Of a stretch of 32,945 nucleotides of DNA, positions 1 to 24,288 are shown one piece after another. The position numbers and the translations under genes are program-made. A model generated the notes under the pieces. The model saw only the letters and a list, made by a program, of their open reading frames with translations, had not been told where the DNA came from and ran no database searches. Every line of letters starts with the position of its first letter. Position 1 is the first letter of the stretch. Source of the DNA: a virus; the IMG/VR virus record IMGVR_UViG_3300024517_000068, positions 1 to 32,945 of that record. One strand, 5' to 3'.

Positions 1-45
1 CCACGACCACGACCCCGACCCTATGAGCATCATGTGCTGGTTCAT
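1..45 (-). CDS. Ser-X dipeptide-repeat protein, second tandem copy (partial, runs off left edge)
   Basis: Reading leftwards from an ATG at 43-45, this frame encodes MNQHMMLIGS followed by GSWSW and continues beyond the window. The first ten residues are identical to those of the neighbouring gene at 42-248, whose TGA stop overlaps this ATG (ATGA), so the two are arranged as translationally coupled tandem copies. A GAGGCGGA ribosome binding site precedes the start. Only 15 residues are visible. The function is unknown; calling it a gene is an inference from the conserved start, ribosome binding site and overlap. Confidence 0.4.
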   Translation of the reverse strand, partial: MNQHMMLIGSGSWSW

Positions 46-248
46 TCCGCCTCACTCTCCCTCCAGTCGCCCGACCACGACCACGACCACGGCCACGGCC
101 CCGACCCCGACCCCGACCGCGACAACGAGGACCCCGACCGCGACCACGACACCGACCACGACACCGACCGCGACCGTGACCGCGACCACGAGGACCTCGA
201 CCGTGACCACGAGGACCGCGACCCTATGAGCATCATGTGCTGGTTCAT
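16..248. repeat. Hexanucleotide repeat array bounded by a 30-bp direct repeat
   Basis: A 30-bp sequence at 16-45 recurs exactly at 219-248, giving a repeat period of 203 bp. Between the copies lies a degenerate 6-bp array (CGACCN on plus, GGTCGN on minus) from about 76 to 220. The window begins inside another such array (1-18). The structure suggests tandem duplication of a whole small gene plus its repeat tract, a type of DNA prone to copy-number change by slippage or recombination. Confidence 0.8.
42..248 (-). CDS. Ser-Arg/Ser-Trp dipeptide-repeat protein
   Basis: This 68-residue frame starts MNQHMMLIGS and then runs as a Ser-X repeat, where X is Arg, Trp, Gly or Val, to about residue 58, ending SGDWRESEAE. 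A GGAGGC ribosome binding site lies just before the ATG, and the gene sits 17 bases downstream of the leftward gene at 266-622, consistent with one operon. The DNA is a degenerate TCGNGG hexamer array with no stops in several frames, so open frames alone are weak evidence. The support comes from the ribosome binding site, the operon position and the identical start of the next copy. I recognise no family. A plus-strand reading (Asp-His/Asp-Arg repeats) is the alternative. Confidence 0.45.
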   Translation of the reverse strand: MNQHMMLIGSRSSWSRSRSSWSRSRSRSVSWSVSWSRSGSSLSRSGSGSGPWPWSWSWSGDWRESEAE

Positions 249-666: not shown

Positions 667-670
667 GGGT

Positions 671-763
671 GCTGTGGGCCGGGTTCGAACCGGCGACCTC
701 CAAGGTGAATCCTGAGAGTCGAAACTGCGGGCCTTGGCGCTCTACCAACTGAGCTCCCACAGC
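671..763 (-). tRNA. tRNA-like gene with a 28-nt anticodon loop (21-nt insertion)
   Basis: On the minus strand the 7-bp acceptor stem GCTGTGG/CCACAGC, the D arm GCTC-AGTTGGTA-GAGC, the variable loop AGGTC and the T arm GCCGG-TTCGAAC-CCGGC are all canonical. The anticodon stem CCAAG/CTTGG also pairs, but it encloses 28 bases instead of 7. Total length is 93, which equals a normal 72-base tRNA body plus 21. A type II (Ser/Leu/Tyr) reading fails because the 5-base variable loop and the stem are fixed. The anticodon cannot be assigned: the last seven loop bases contain TTC, the Glu anticodon, but without U33. CCA is not encoded. It could be a tRNA with a small intron-like insertion or a decayed gene. 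Confidence 0.75.
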
Positions 764-1428: not shown

Positions 1429-1458
1429 CCCAGGACTTTGGGGCCGCGGTGTATTCTT

Positions 1459-1477
1459 GTCAAGATATCAGTTGACA
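1459..1477. promoter_or_regulatory. Inverted repeat TGTCAA-N7-TTGACA
   Basis: TGTCAA (1459-1464) and TTGACA (1472-1477) form a perfect inverted repeat with a 7-bp spacer, about 30 bp upstream of the leftward gene at 1132-1428. Each arm also reads as a consensus -35 box, one per strand, but no good -10 is found at the right distance on either strand. It is a candidate operator or bidirectional control site, unless the region is coding as discussed for the adjacent gene. Confidence 0.3.
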
Positions 1478-1687: not shown

Positions 1688-1717
1688 TTGACATAAAATG
1701 GGGCCCAAAGGTATTTT
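1688..1717 (+). promoter_or_regulatory. Candidate sigma-70-type promoter for the structured RNA
   Basis: A consensus TTGACA box (1688-1693) is followed after 18 bp by TATTTT (1712-1717), four of six matches to the -10 consensus. Transcription would begin near 1724 and run through the hairpins to the terminator at 1872-1909, giving an RNA of about 185 nt. The -10 overlaps the 5' arm of the inverted repeat at 1708-1720, so that arm could act in DNA rather than in the RNA. Confidence 0.4.
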
Positions 1718-1832
1718 CATCGTACGCCCGCAGCGGGCTCGGTTGCCCCCAGGCAACCAGGCCCGCGGGACTGCGTCCCTCGGAGCGTATCACATGAAAA
1801 TACCTTAGGAACTCCCCTGATCCCTAAGGTAT
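1708..1832 (+). ncRNA. Structured RNA element with mutually exclusive helices (candidate ncRNA or leader)
   Basis: The sequence shows nested pairing. AAGGTATTTTCAT (1708-1720) pairs with ATGAAAATACCTT (1794-1806). Inside that, GTACGC (1722-1727) pairs with GCGTAT (1785-1790) and closes a junction carrying two hairpins: GCGGGC/GCCCGC with GGTTGCC/GGCAACC (1733-1766) and GGGAC/GTCCC (1767-1779). The 3' arm also forms a competing perfect hairpin, ATACCTTAGG (1800-1809) with CCTAAGGTAT (1823-1832). No protein-coding frame is convincing here. It could be a phage small RNA, a riboswitch- or attenuator-like leader, or a DNA element such as an origin or packaging site. I do not recognise a known RNA family. 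Confidence 0.5.
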
Positions 1833-1871
1833 CCCGCTTCATCCCCAGTCAACCACAACCCCACGCAACGA

Positions 1872-1909
1872 GCCCCAGACGCTTTTCAGCCGGTGTCTGG
1901 GGCGTTTTT
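1872..1909 (+). terminator. Rho-independent terminator
   Basis: GCCCCAGAC (1872-1880) and GTCTGGGGC (1895-1903) form a perfect 9-bp GC-rich stem with a 14-base loop, followed by GTTTTTATTT. This is a textbook intrinsic terminator on the plus strand. No plus-strand protein gene lies upstream of it, which supports a non-coding transcript ending here. Confidence 0.85.
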
Positions 1910-1945: not shown

Positions 1946-1979
1946 TGTCCAATTTTGGACACCACAGGCAAACTATAAC
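1946..1979 (+). promoter_or_regulatory. Perfect 16-bp palindrome and -10-like box upstream of the rightward operon
   Basis: TGTCCAATTTTGGACA (1946-1961) is a perfect palindrome, a typical shape for a dimeric repressor site. TATAAC (1974-1979) follows and could be a -10 element, though no good -35 lies 16-18 bp upstream. A TTGACA at 1980-1985 lacks a matching -10. The palindrome shares its TGTCCA/TGGACA half-sites with those at 430-461 and 8722-8763. From here to 2139 I see nothing else definite. Confidence 0.45.
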
Positions 1980-2139: not shown

Positions 2140-2604
2140 ATGACCGTCAAAAGATCGCGCTCGCAGTCGCGGCTAATCACGAGCAGTCAGAGCTATCAGC
2201 CCACCGAAATTATCCAGTGCCCAAGCGCCGCGAAAGCCAGTGAGAAGCGTGGGTATGGGTGGGGAATGCACCTACCCCACCAGCGGGCGGGCGCCATCAT
2301 CCTGGCGATCCGCGGGGGTCATCACGCTTGCTCGGCCATGAGCGACTATATAGTGGGGAGCGACCCGAGCGCGGCGGCGAACCCCAGCATGTTACTCAAG
2401 ATCTGCAAGTCGCTAGCACTGACCGGCCTGCTGGTGCCGTACATCGAGGCTCTCCCACAGAATCGCATGCGCTTTATGTTCTTTCTAGCCTGGGCACCGC
2501 CGGACACCGATTCGGAGTATTGGCGGCACCTGCTCACCCTGGAAGAGTCCAACGAGCGCGTACCCGAGGCGGATAGCGCCATAACTCGTCGGTGGGTGGC
2601 CTAG
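2140..2604 (+). CDS. Hypothetical phage protein (154 aa)
   Basis: This is the first gene of the rightward operon, starting at an ATG preceded by GGAG. It encodes 154 residues with a basic, polar N-terminus (about residues 1-40), a central stretch rich in small and hydrophobic residues (HQRAGAIILAIRGGHHAC, then LLKICKSLALTGLLVPYIEAL) and an acidic helical C-terminus (HLLTLEESNERVPEADS). The hydrophobic parts look like buried helices rather than clear membrane spans. No family is recognised. The stop overlaps the GTG start of the RusA-like gene (TAGTG), so the two are translationally coupled and may work together in DNA metabolism; that is inference. Confidence 0.65.
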   Translation: MTVKRSRSQSRLITSSQSYQPTEIIQCPSAAKASEKRGYGWGMHLPHQRAGAIILAIRGGHHACSAMSDYIVGSDPSAAANPSMLLKICKSLALTGLLVPYIEALPQNRMRFMFFLAWAPPDTDSEYWRHLLTLEESNERVPEADSAITRRWVA

Positions 2605-3203
2605 TGGCGAAGTCCCCAGACTATCGGCCGCCAGCCCTCGATGCTGCGAGGTCCCCGAACATCTACGAATCTCTCCTTACAGCCCTTCGCGGGCTCTATG
2701 GCGAGCCAGCCTACGAGCTATTGCTGCCTGGACCTCCAAGGGGCTTCACTGTGGCGCGCAAGACCGAGGGGTCGCCCACGGCGATGAGGTCCCGGCTCTG
2801 GGCGCGCGAAGCTCAGGCCATGCTCGACCACGAATATTCCGAGTTCTTTGTTTCGGCTACCAAAGATTCCCCGTTATTTTTCTTTACGCAAGCTTGGTTT
2901 GGCTCCGGGCGCCATTGCGACCCGGAAAACACGCACAAGCTTCTCAAGGATGCACTATTCCGGCACGGTGAGGGGCTTAAAGATAAGTACACCGCCGGTG
3001 CATTCGCCGGTCCTTTATATGATTTACTCCAACCGCGCACCGAGGTGTATATTTGGCGCCTTTCGATGCCCGAGGCCGAAAAGGTCTCCAGCCCTCCGGC
3101 GCCGGCAACACTTGTACGCCCGCCAACGGCCGCGGATGTTCCGCGCCAGACCGTGACGGCGAAGCCGATTAAATCTAACAACCCCTTCGATATGTTGAAA
3201 TGA
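2604..3203 (+). CDS. RusA-like Holliday junction resolvase candidate
   Basis: The gene encodes 199 residues from a GTG overlapping the previous stop; an in-frame GTG at 2592 is an alternative start. The RusA family resolves four-way DNA junctions using clustered acidic residues in a DP[D/E]N..K...DA pattern. Here DPENTHKLLKDALF begins at residue 106, and a second acidic residue occurs in KDKYT (D127), followed by a TEVYIWRL beta strand, which matches the family core layout. The N-terminus (STPNIYESLL-like helix) and the Pro/Ala-rich C-terminal tail (from about residue 165) are unusual additions; typical RusA proteins are about 120-140 residues. Assignment is by motif only. The start of the protein lacks the usual RusA strand I would like to see. 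Confidence 0.5.
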   Translation: MAKSPDYRPPALDAARSPNIYESLLTALRGLYGEPAYELLLPGPPRGFTVARKTEGSPTAMRSRLWAREAQAMLDHEYSEFFVSATKDSPLFFFTQAWFGSGRHCDPENTHKLLKDALFRHGEGLKDKYTAGAFAGPLYDLLQPRTEVYIWRLSMPEAEKVSSPPAPATLVRPPTAADVPRQTVTAKPIKSNNPFDMLK

Positions 3204-6748: not shown

Positions 6749-6949
6749 ATGACATCCATCCCAAGACACCCAGGAGCCCGCCTAAGGCGCTCCAGAACTC
6801 TCAAGGGCCTCACCCTCACCGAGGCTGCAGACCGGCTTAGAATGCCGGCCATGAGCCTCCTATCCGTGGAACTCGGCTGCACCAACCTACAGTGGGCAAC
6901 AAGCGTATTTCGACTATGGACCACCAGCCAAAAAACAAGCACTACCTAG
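6749..6949 (+). CDS. Small XRE-like HTH protein (66 aa)
   Basis: The sequence GARLRRSRTLKGLTLTEAADRLRMPAMSLLSVELG (residues 9-43) fits an XRE-family helix-turn-helix: the first helix, TLTEAADRLRM as helix 2, and a recognition helix before a VELG end. The C-terminus is short and polar. At 66 residues it is about the minimum for a Cro-like protein. It may bind one of the palindromes in the control regions. The family assignment is by eye. Confidence 0.55.
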   Translation: MTSIPRHPGARLRRSRTLKGLTLTEAADRLRMPAMSLLSVELGCTNLQWATSVFRLWTTSQKTSTT

Positions 6950-7991: not shown

Positions 7992-8032
7992 TAGTGTACC
8001 GTTGACACTAACCCAAAATTGGGCAATACTTT
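7992..8032 (+). promoter_or_regulatory. Promoter with overlapping operator-like palindromes ahead of the packaging genes
   Basis: A consensus TTGACA (8002-8007) is followed by AATACT (8025-8030, 17-bp spacing). The -35 is embedded in the inverted repeat TAGTGT-N7-ACACTA (7992-8010), and the spacer contains the palindrome CCCAAAATTGGG (8012-8023). The first downstream gene starts 30 bp later. This is the only strong promoter candidate before the structural block and so probably drives late genes under repressor or activator control. Confidence 0.5.
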
Positions 8033-8792: not shown

Positions 8793-8885
8793 CAACTGTC
8801 TGCGGCGGTCGCGCCGAGCCTAACCCCCTCCCCCACACGCAAAATTTTTCCCCAATAAAAACCCAGACCTTTGTTTCCCCTACCC

Positions 8886-9188
8886 ATGGAAATCTACAAC
8901 GACACCCGACTATCCGCAGGAGCTAGGTTGCTCTGGCTCGCAATGCAAGGCAATATAATCGAGGATGGAAGGCCCAAGAGCACCCAGTATTTTGCCACGA
9001 AGGACTACCTAGCGGGACTGATAGGCGTGTCGGTCAACACCGCCAACCGCTACATCCGAGCACTTCGTTCTACAGGTTGGCTCTCGGCCAACGGCGACGC
9101 GTGCGTGCAGACGTGGGATCTGCACTCGCTACCCACTGGCGAAGACGAAGTCCCCACGAGAGAGAGCCCTCATGCCCAGGAAACCTAG
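8886..9188 (+). CDS. Winged-helix DNA-binding protein (100 aa)
   Basis: The ATG gives MEIYNDTRLSAGARLLWLAM; a TTG at 8871 would add FPLP-type residues common in this domain, so the true start may be there. The fold is recognisable as a phage-type winged helix: an opening DxRLSxGARLLW helix, KDYLAGLIGVSVNTANRYIRAL as helix-turn-helix, and STGWLSANG as wing. Such domains are found in replication initiators and in terminase-associated proteins. Its place between the small-terminase candidate and TerL suggests it helps recognise packaging DNA. It overlaps TerL by 17 bases. Confidence 0.65.
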   Translation: MEIYNDTRLSAGARLLWLAMQGNIIEDGRPKSTQYFATKDYLAGLIGVSVNTANRYIRALRSTGWLSANGDACVQTWDLHSLPTGEDEVPTRESPHAQET

Positions 9189-23883: not shown

Positions 23884-24288
23884 ATGGCCGTTCTTCGCAC
23901 ACTCTCGCGCACCATCAGAGCATTCCGTCACAAAGGCGGATTGCAGGTGGAGCGCCACGACTCGACAGGCCGGAACGCCTACGGTGAGGACAGCTCTGCC
24001 GTGGTCAATTTGTTCCGGCTCGACCCCGTCGTGGTGCAGCCGCTTGAGGGTGCCGACCTCCTGCAAGTGCCGGCGGGCCAGCGGGACCGCGAACGCGTGC
24101 TTGTCCACGCATGCCAAAAAGTCCGGATCTCTCGTGGCGGTTCGACGATGGGCGCGGATGTGCTGCTCTACGCGCCGGTGCCTGGAGGCCCCACGCATCG
24201 CTACGTCTTCGAGACTGCCGAGCCGTGGGTTGCGCAAGCCGGCTTCTGGCGATGTCGCGCAGTGCGGCTAGAGGGGGACGGCACATGA
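23884..24288 (+). CDS. Head-tail joining protein candidate (134 aa)
   Basis: The first ATG after the previous stop gives a protein starting MAVLRTLSRTIRAFRHKGGL. It contains VERHDSTGRNAYGEDSSAV, VVQPLEGADLLQVPAGQRDR and FETAEPWVAQAGFWRCRAVR, a small beta-barrel layout seen in head-closure proteins. No family is certain. The stop overlaps the next ATG (ATGA). Confidence 0.55.
   Translation: MAVLRTLSRTIRAFRHKGGLQVERHDSTGRNAYGEDSSAVVNLFRLDPVVVQPLEGADLLQVPAGQRDRERVLVHACQKVRISRGGSTMGADVLLYAPVPGGPTHRYVFETAEPWVAQAGFWRCRAVRLEGDGT

Follow-up and report, generated by a model that had tools for sequence, protein, structure and literature searches.

The element and its surroundings

The window, a stretch of 32,945 nucleotides, is an IMG/VR virus record, and this phage is also represented by a longer one (G001, IMGVR_UViG_3300024520_000134, 45,268 bp), which is 100% identical to it over 20.9 kb and carries one mismatch in the next 12.9 kb. 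The loci L002, L082 and L083, which belong to this longer record, were rejected as a second source, being the same phage as the window and not independent. Rightward genes of the phage include those for TerL, portal, head and tape-measure-like proteins, and at the far end PolA, single-strand-binding, Sak4-like, PD-(D/E)XK, Prim-Pol and SNF2-type helicase genes run leftward. The element at 1688-1909 forms the boundary of two divergent gene blocks, the small leftward ORFs at 266-1428 and the rightward genes from 2140 on. Its parts and nearest genes are the following, with the equivalents in a divergent relative, L088:

1132-1428, minus strand: leftward gene nearest the element on its other side; no match, gene-like GC by codon position
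1688-1693, plus strand: -35 hexamer TTGACA, exact; the same hexamer stands 22 nt before GGTAT in L088 (2418-2423)
1705-1720, plus strand: left arm of helix P1; holds the -10 and is missing from RNA begun at this promoter
1712-1717, plus strand: -10-like hexamer TATTTT, within the left arm of P1; the L088 equivalent is TATCAT (2442-2447)
1722-1790, plus strand: 69-nt 5' domain, a predicted three-way junction with closing helix 1722-1730/1781-1790 and hairpins P2 (1733-1766) and P3 (1767-1779)
1794-1809, plus strand: right arm of P1, able to pair with the left arm and its -10 region or with the third copy
1823-1832, plus strand: third copy CCTAAGGTAT, fully complementary over 10 bp to 1800-1809 (0 of 2000 shuffles as good)
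1872-1909, plus strand: intrinsic terminator, stem-loop 1872-1903 with 12 pairs (z -5.0) and T tract 1905-1909
2140-2604, plus strand: first rightward gene past the terminator, without significant PHROG or Pfam match

Both ends of the element bear out an earlier note, which had read a consensus -35 and a strong intrinsic terminator here: the hexamer is exact, the promoter matches the consensus at 10 of 12 positions with a spacer of 18, and the terminator is as listed. From the position of the -10 we infer a transcription start at about 1722-1725. A further TTGACA lies past the terminator at 1980, without a good -10. As classes, such sites are not enriched in the first 4 kb, where 2 promoter-like sites were found against 1.5 expected from shuffles and 3 terminator-like sites against 2.7; in the scanned stretches of L088 both kinds likewise occur at shuffle frequency.

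The two ORFs that overlie the element (1380-1793 minus, 1549-1797 plus) have a second-codon-position GC of 0.65, compared with 0.41-0.51 in the nine ORFs taken as genes. By codon-position GC the element is therefore non-coding DNA, as the same note had held in finding no convincing gene in it. The ORF directly 3' of it (1908-2102 minus) has a value of 0.58. The accompanying statement that the architecture lacks a downstream gene is correct as far as the terminator, before which there is none, but gene 2140-2604 starts 237 nt after the terminator stem. Cumulative GC skew marks no origin at the element, and no integrase or recombinase was matched among the proteins scanned.

Other parts of the phage carry features of their own. 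Degenerate GACCAC-type repeats of 6, 21 and 63 bp fill window positions 1-230, and window 1-155 recurs with 84% identity at the far end of the 45-kb record, which may mean a nearly complete genome or one with terminal repeats. The only Rfam match at gathering score in the window is a tRNA at 670-763; the tRNA there (668-763, minus strand, 96 nt) is called Ala(CGC). By our own reading its body is canonical if CCAAG/CTTGG is taken as the anticodon stem, but the anticodon loop is then 28 nt and not 7, which would suit an insertion of some 21 nt; the gene might carry an intron-like insert or be a decoy or a broken tRNA. ARAGORN, with introns allowed or not, gives it a long variable arm instead. 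The L088 phage yielded no tRNA. Palindromes of the form TGTCAA-N8-TTGACA occur twice in the 45-kb phage with equal spacing (window 1458-1477 and 41238-41257 of the longer record), and GTCAATTTGAC occurs twice in the corresponding divergent region of L088 (1610, 1638); all of these are possible operators. Two other palindromes lie upstream of rightward genes, GTCCAATTTTGGAC at window 1947-1960 before gene 2140 and CCCAAAATTGGG at 8012-8023 before gene 8057, the latter inside a TTGACA promoter-like site.

Fold and alternative pairings in the window

The fold of 1688-1909 has a predicted energy of -100.8 kcal/mol (z -6.9), that of 1704-1811 alone a z of -8.35 and that of the 5' domain 1722-1790 a z of -5.4; in each case none of 200 shuffles was as good. 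In a scan of 1130 plus-strand segments of 120 nt across the 45-kb phage, with 30 shuffles each, the segment at 1721 had the lowest z of all (-5.5), with the runner-up at 23921 (-5.4). Thus, the three-way-junction-like fold described earlier is indeed very stable. The RNA from the start site alone folds with a z of -5.9, and for an RNA started at 1725 the lowest-energy fold lacks the closing helix.

The notion of one arm with two alternative partners was likewise confirmed. Positions 1705-1720 are complementary to 1794-1809 at 15 of 16 positions, a pairing of the right arm with the -10 region that none of 2000 shuffles equalled, and 1800-1809 can instead pair over 10 bp with the third copy. The motif AAGGTAT occurs four times in the window against 1.5 expected (6 of 100 shuffles reach four), and three of the four lie in the element. 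However, the proposed direct competition between these copies needs revision, as the upstream copy lies outside the predicted RNA. The segment 1708-1720 contains the -10 hexamer and is therefore missing from a transcript begun at this promoter, which retains the downstream pairing (1800-1809/1823-1832) alone. The 13-bp P1 requires RNA that was begun further upstream, single-stranded DNA or an RNA-DNA hybrid, and its pairing might mark transcripts that were not begun at this promoter. The terminator stem was present in every full-length fold computed, with or without the left arm, and no mutual exclusion of terminator and antiterminator was found in these folds.

A matching cassette in one divergent relative

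A search with gene 2592-3203 led to L088 (IMGVR_UViG_3300002231_000762, 47,953 bp), a phage with 64% identity to the window phage in TerL, over the 162 residues present, and 62% in the capsid protein. Many structural and replication genes of the two phages correspond in position, and the gene next past the L088 cassette is a homolog (36% identical) of gene 2140-2604. One L088 ORF (6041-7429) has the look of an adenylosuccinate lyase (PurB), recognised by eye.

The cassette of L088 begins with the promoter TTGACA-18-TATCAT (2418-2447), which matches the consensus at 11 of 12 positions and whose -10, as in the window, forms part of the left arm in an inverted repeat. It continues with a P1-enclosed region that folds with a z of -3.5 (1 of 200 shuffles as good; whole stretch z -5.3) and ends in a terminator at 2569-2606 (z -9.4). 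GGTATCA occurs 14 times in the 48 kb, both strands counted; two of these copies start at 2440 and 2620, and a complementary one at 2525. The distance from TTGACA to GGTAT is 22 nt in both phages, and the repeat spans 94 nt in the window and 91 in L088. This common register makes coincidence less likely, and the complementarity tests leave it out of account. Those tests gave p 0.024 for the -10 pairing of L088 alone, p 0.075 for its third copy and p 0.023 for its -35 pairing, which was looked for after its appearance in a fold.

Of the 13 P1 pairs that follow one another without a gap in the window, six are unchanged in L088, five of these being the GGTAT core, five have changed on both sides and two are broken. 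The covariation test that the earlier note had asked for thus extends to two independent sequences only. The two cassettes have little sequence in common. Their alignment contains no identical run longer than 7, and the L088 P1, with a longest exact run of 8 bp, was not listed by the repeat finder. The L088 interior (2452-2521, 70 nt) has a like topology, but its z is -0.54 and 56 of 200 shuffles were as good. Nor is this cassette a top fold outlier of its own phage, its best segment ranking 5th of 1196, at the terminator. Unlike that of the window, the third L088 copy (2620) lies past the terminator and is followed by a promoter at 2701-2729 that matches the consensus at 12 of 12 positions; L088 also differs in what precedes the cassette, namely two small ORFs in the rightward direction and a further GC-rich stretch. 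This second stretch (2225-2420) is hairpin-rich and stands right before the cassette (z -2.3, 4 of 200 shuffles as good). We consider the replication of the cassette by L088 to be of moderate strength.

Other relatives were sought without success. None was found among INPHARED phages or PLSDB plasmids, and the IMG/VR and GTDB scans gave no relative beyond L088 with a recognisable element; apart from the window's own record L002, the best 80 of the 115 terminase relatives were scanned by script only. A GTDB match to the bare inverted repeat (L086) looked by eye like coding sequence in a Bacillota MAG and was taken as chance. In two loci that share a RusA-like gene, the repeat finder listed no repeat (L089) or two unlike ones (L090) in the 2 kb before that gene, and a contig that shares the capsid gene (L104) ends 1.7 kb before it. 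Blastn matches to a Comamonas plasmid and an Arthrobacter phage were short. Terminase, capsid, polymerase and tape-measure searches gave no close annotated phage, all records being below 60% identity. At gathering score Rfam has no family at the element, and nothing came near threshold there or in L088 1600-2740; cmscan of 1400-2200 gave four weak matches, none of them to put. The ideas of an invertible promoter, an attachment site or a transposon end were dropped, as no long arm sequence is common to the two phages and the proteins scanned gave no integrase or recombinase match.

In both phages the promoter is complementary to sequence downstream of it, and we ranked this property over the promoter-like sites of loci that total about 1 Mb and are partly redundant. 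By combined complementarity of -10 and -35 the window stands 1st and L088 11th of 1384 sites, and by the z of the -10 pairing energies they stand 5th and 10th of 1396. Energies were used because a gapless pairing of all six -10 bases misses the L088 site, where one base is mismatched. Both values are as low as those of L088 in 2 of the 1384 sites, namely L088 itself and, among the sites shown, another one in the same phage (19098, G002 record). Some background sites score above L088, notably 5704 in L074 and 13680 in L080. These two loci are TerL relatives with the same letters there (TATACA-18-TAGAAT), the -10 pairs with a segment 74 nt downstream, and the site ranks next to that of the window in both the strict pairing test and the combined ranking.

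Possible roles: control unit, small RNA or mirrored promoter

The best reading of these data, which we put forward tentatively, is a self-contained unit of promoter, structured untranslated RNA of about 185 nt and terminator, with a role in control in cis. A sigma70-type promoter at 1688-1717 would drive this RNA where the leftward and rightward genes diverge. The transcript would fold from its first base into the 69-nt three-way junction, then into the 10-bp hairpin 1800-1809/1823-1832 and then into the terminator, and transcription would end at 1872-1909, with the first rightward gene about 230 nt further on. Polymerases would stop early unless a factor of phage or host, or the 5' domain of the RNA itself, overrode the terminator. 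It is the order of promoter, structured leader and terminator ahead of a gene block that gives the layout of terminator-gated control, and from this order we infer a gating of the downstream genes; among the proteins scanned (a subset of the ORFs) no antitermination factor was recognised.

Late control in phage lambda has such a layout: the promoter pR' is followed by the 6S leader RNA of about 190 nt, the terminator tR' and then rightward genes. The window and L088 resemble it in sequence layout alone. However, no Q-like protein was matched among those of the window phage that were scanned (again a subset of the ORFs), the first rightward genes of the window are mostly small and without family matches, and its TerL gene follows about 7 kb later with a promoter-like site at 8002 in between. 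The 5' domain of the window also resembles HK022 putL, which PMC9378689 describes as an RNA of about 70 nt with two stem-loops right after the early PL promoter; lambdoid early genes are there described as preceded by terminators. In the window, 1722-1790 is likewise 69 nt with two stem-loops right after the promoter, and in L088 2452-2521 fits the topology with a fold not above shuffles. The window domain differs from putL in its closing helix, which makes it a three-way junction, in the intrinsic terminator that starts about 80 nt past it and in the complementarity of the promoter's -10 to a segment of the RNA. We take the likeness to putL as a resemblance and not as membership.

One argument against gating comes from L088, where the 12/12 promoter past the terminator means that the rightward genes may not need read-through. 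With that consensus promoter ahead of the next gene in L088, a free small RNA comes close to terminator gating in plausibility, and the unit is probably one or the other of these two ahead of the rightward genes. A trans-acting RNA, insulated by its terminator and acting on host or phage RNAs or proteins while the rightward genes use their own promoter, is possible but in itself doubtful. The strong terminator in both phages and the lack of antiterminator pairing in the full-length folds agree with it, as does, with its poor -10, the TTGACA at 1980 in the window. On the other hand, no conserved seed for a common target is visible between the two phages, which have no identical run longer than 7 in the alignment of the element, and no Rfam family matches. 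Of the earlier proposal, the data support a non-coding, terminator-bounded structured RNA unit with its own promoter, which has a similar counterpart in L088, but they do not support the switch.

One could argue that the GGTAT-centred copies, direct, inverted and direct, serve as DNA sites for a phage regulator, with the first copy lying over the -10 and loops formed between the copies. Three copies surround one promoter in each phage, and the window encodes HTH-like proteins at 8871-9188 (above the Pfam cut-off) and 6749-6949 (below it). However, in both phages the arms lead without a break into a folded interior and keep the same register, the interior of the window has a fold well beyond that of shuffles, and the third copy agrees over 10 and 8 nt with the complement of the right arm, compared with 7 and 7 for the left arm. 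Thus we regard such a DNA-level element as unlikely.

Gating does not account for the complementarity, seen in both phages, between the -10 and sequence some 92 nt further on, and no mechanism that we considered explains it fully. It is improbable, and yet worth stating, that the promoter is mirrored downstream on purpose, with the complement of the -10 about 92 nt on, inside the predicted RNA, and with the third copy competing for it in both phages. The RNA or a single strand could then act back on its own promoter, as an RNA-DNA hybrid in the open bubble, a single-strand promoter or a priming site; alternatively, the pairing would serve to tell transcripts begun here from those entering upstream. 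We know of no such promoter-feedback control in a tailed dsDNA phage.

The single-strand version of this idea has known counterparts in plasmids. According to PMC9849209 and PMC11541004, Frpo/ssi sites of conjugative plasmids are non-coding and pair their promoter boxes within the fold of one strand, and PMC4595007 describes plasmid single-strand origins read by host RNA polymerase as folded promoters. In a limited literature search no title listed gave the name of this phage lineage, and Frpo was the nearest design that it met. In the window, DNA-parameter folds of both strands pair both boxes; in L088 the minus-strand fold pairs the -10 and part of the -35, whereas the plus-strand fold has the -10 pairing in the centroid and not in the minimum-energy structure. 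The ranking of the nested downstream complements of both boxes given above points the same way. However, the -35 pairing of the window is weak and its partner ambiguous, either the 3' arm of the terminator (1892-1905, p 0.04) or 1847-1857 (p 0.076), and the two boxes have complements that are separated by about 40 nt or more in the window and by 100 nt in L088. Frpo2 and Frpo1 of the F plasmid, folded as a control, had 22 and 25 of 30 bases paired round the best promoter-like site, in an almost continuous duplex, whereas the complements in the window and L088 are interrupted and neither phage has a long, near-continuous duplex that carries the promoter. Additionally, both sites are already near-consensus promoters in double-stranded form, the phage is a tailed dsDNA phage without recognised transfer functions, and no relaxase or rolling-circle protein was seen among the proteins scanned. 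A single-strand promoter or transcription-primed replication site is therefore quite improbable.

Least probable is the attenuator or ligand-sensing leader of the earlier note: the one arm with two partners is real and a like three-copy arrangement exists in L088, but the upstream partner holds the -10 and lies outside RNA started there, neither alternative pairing touches the terminator, no mutually exclusive folds of which one removes the terminator were found for the predicted start site, the third L088 copy lies past the terminator, and the Rfam comparison gave no riboswitch even at E 10.

If the favoured unit of promoter, structured leader and terminator is a real RNA, a plasmid reporter could be used to test it as a control point of an uncultured phage lineage without a close INPHARED relative. 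Should the complementarity of the -10 to the downstream segment have no function, the cassette would be well defined but ordinary. Should it be functional, it would mean an unusual feedback of a transcript, or of a folded strand, on its own promoter.
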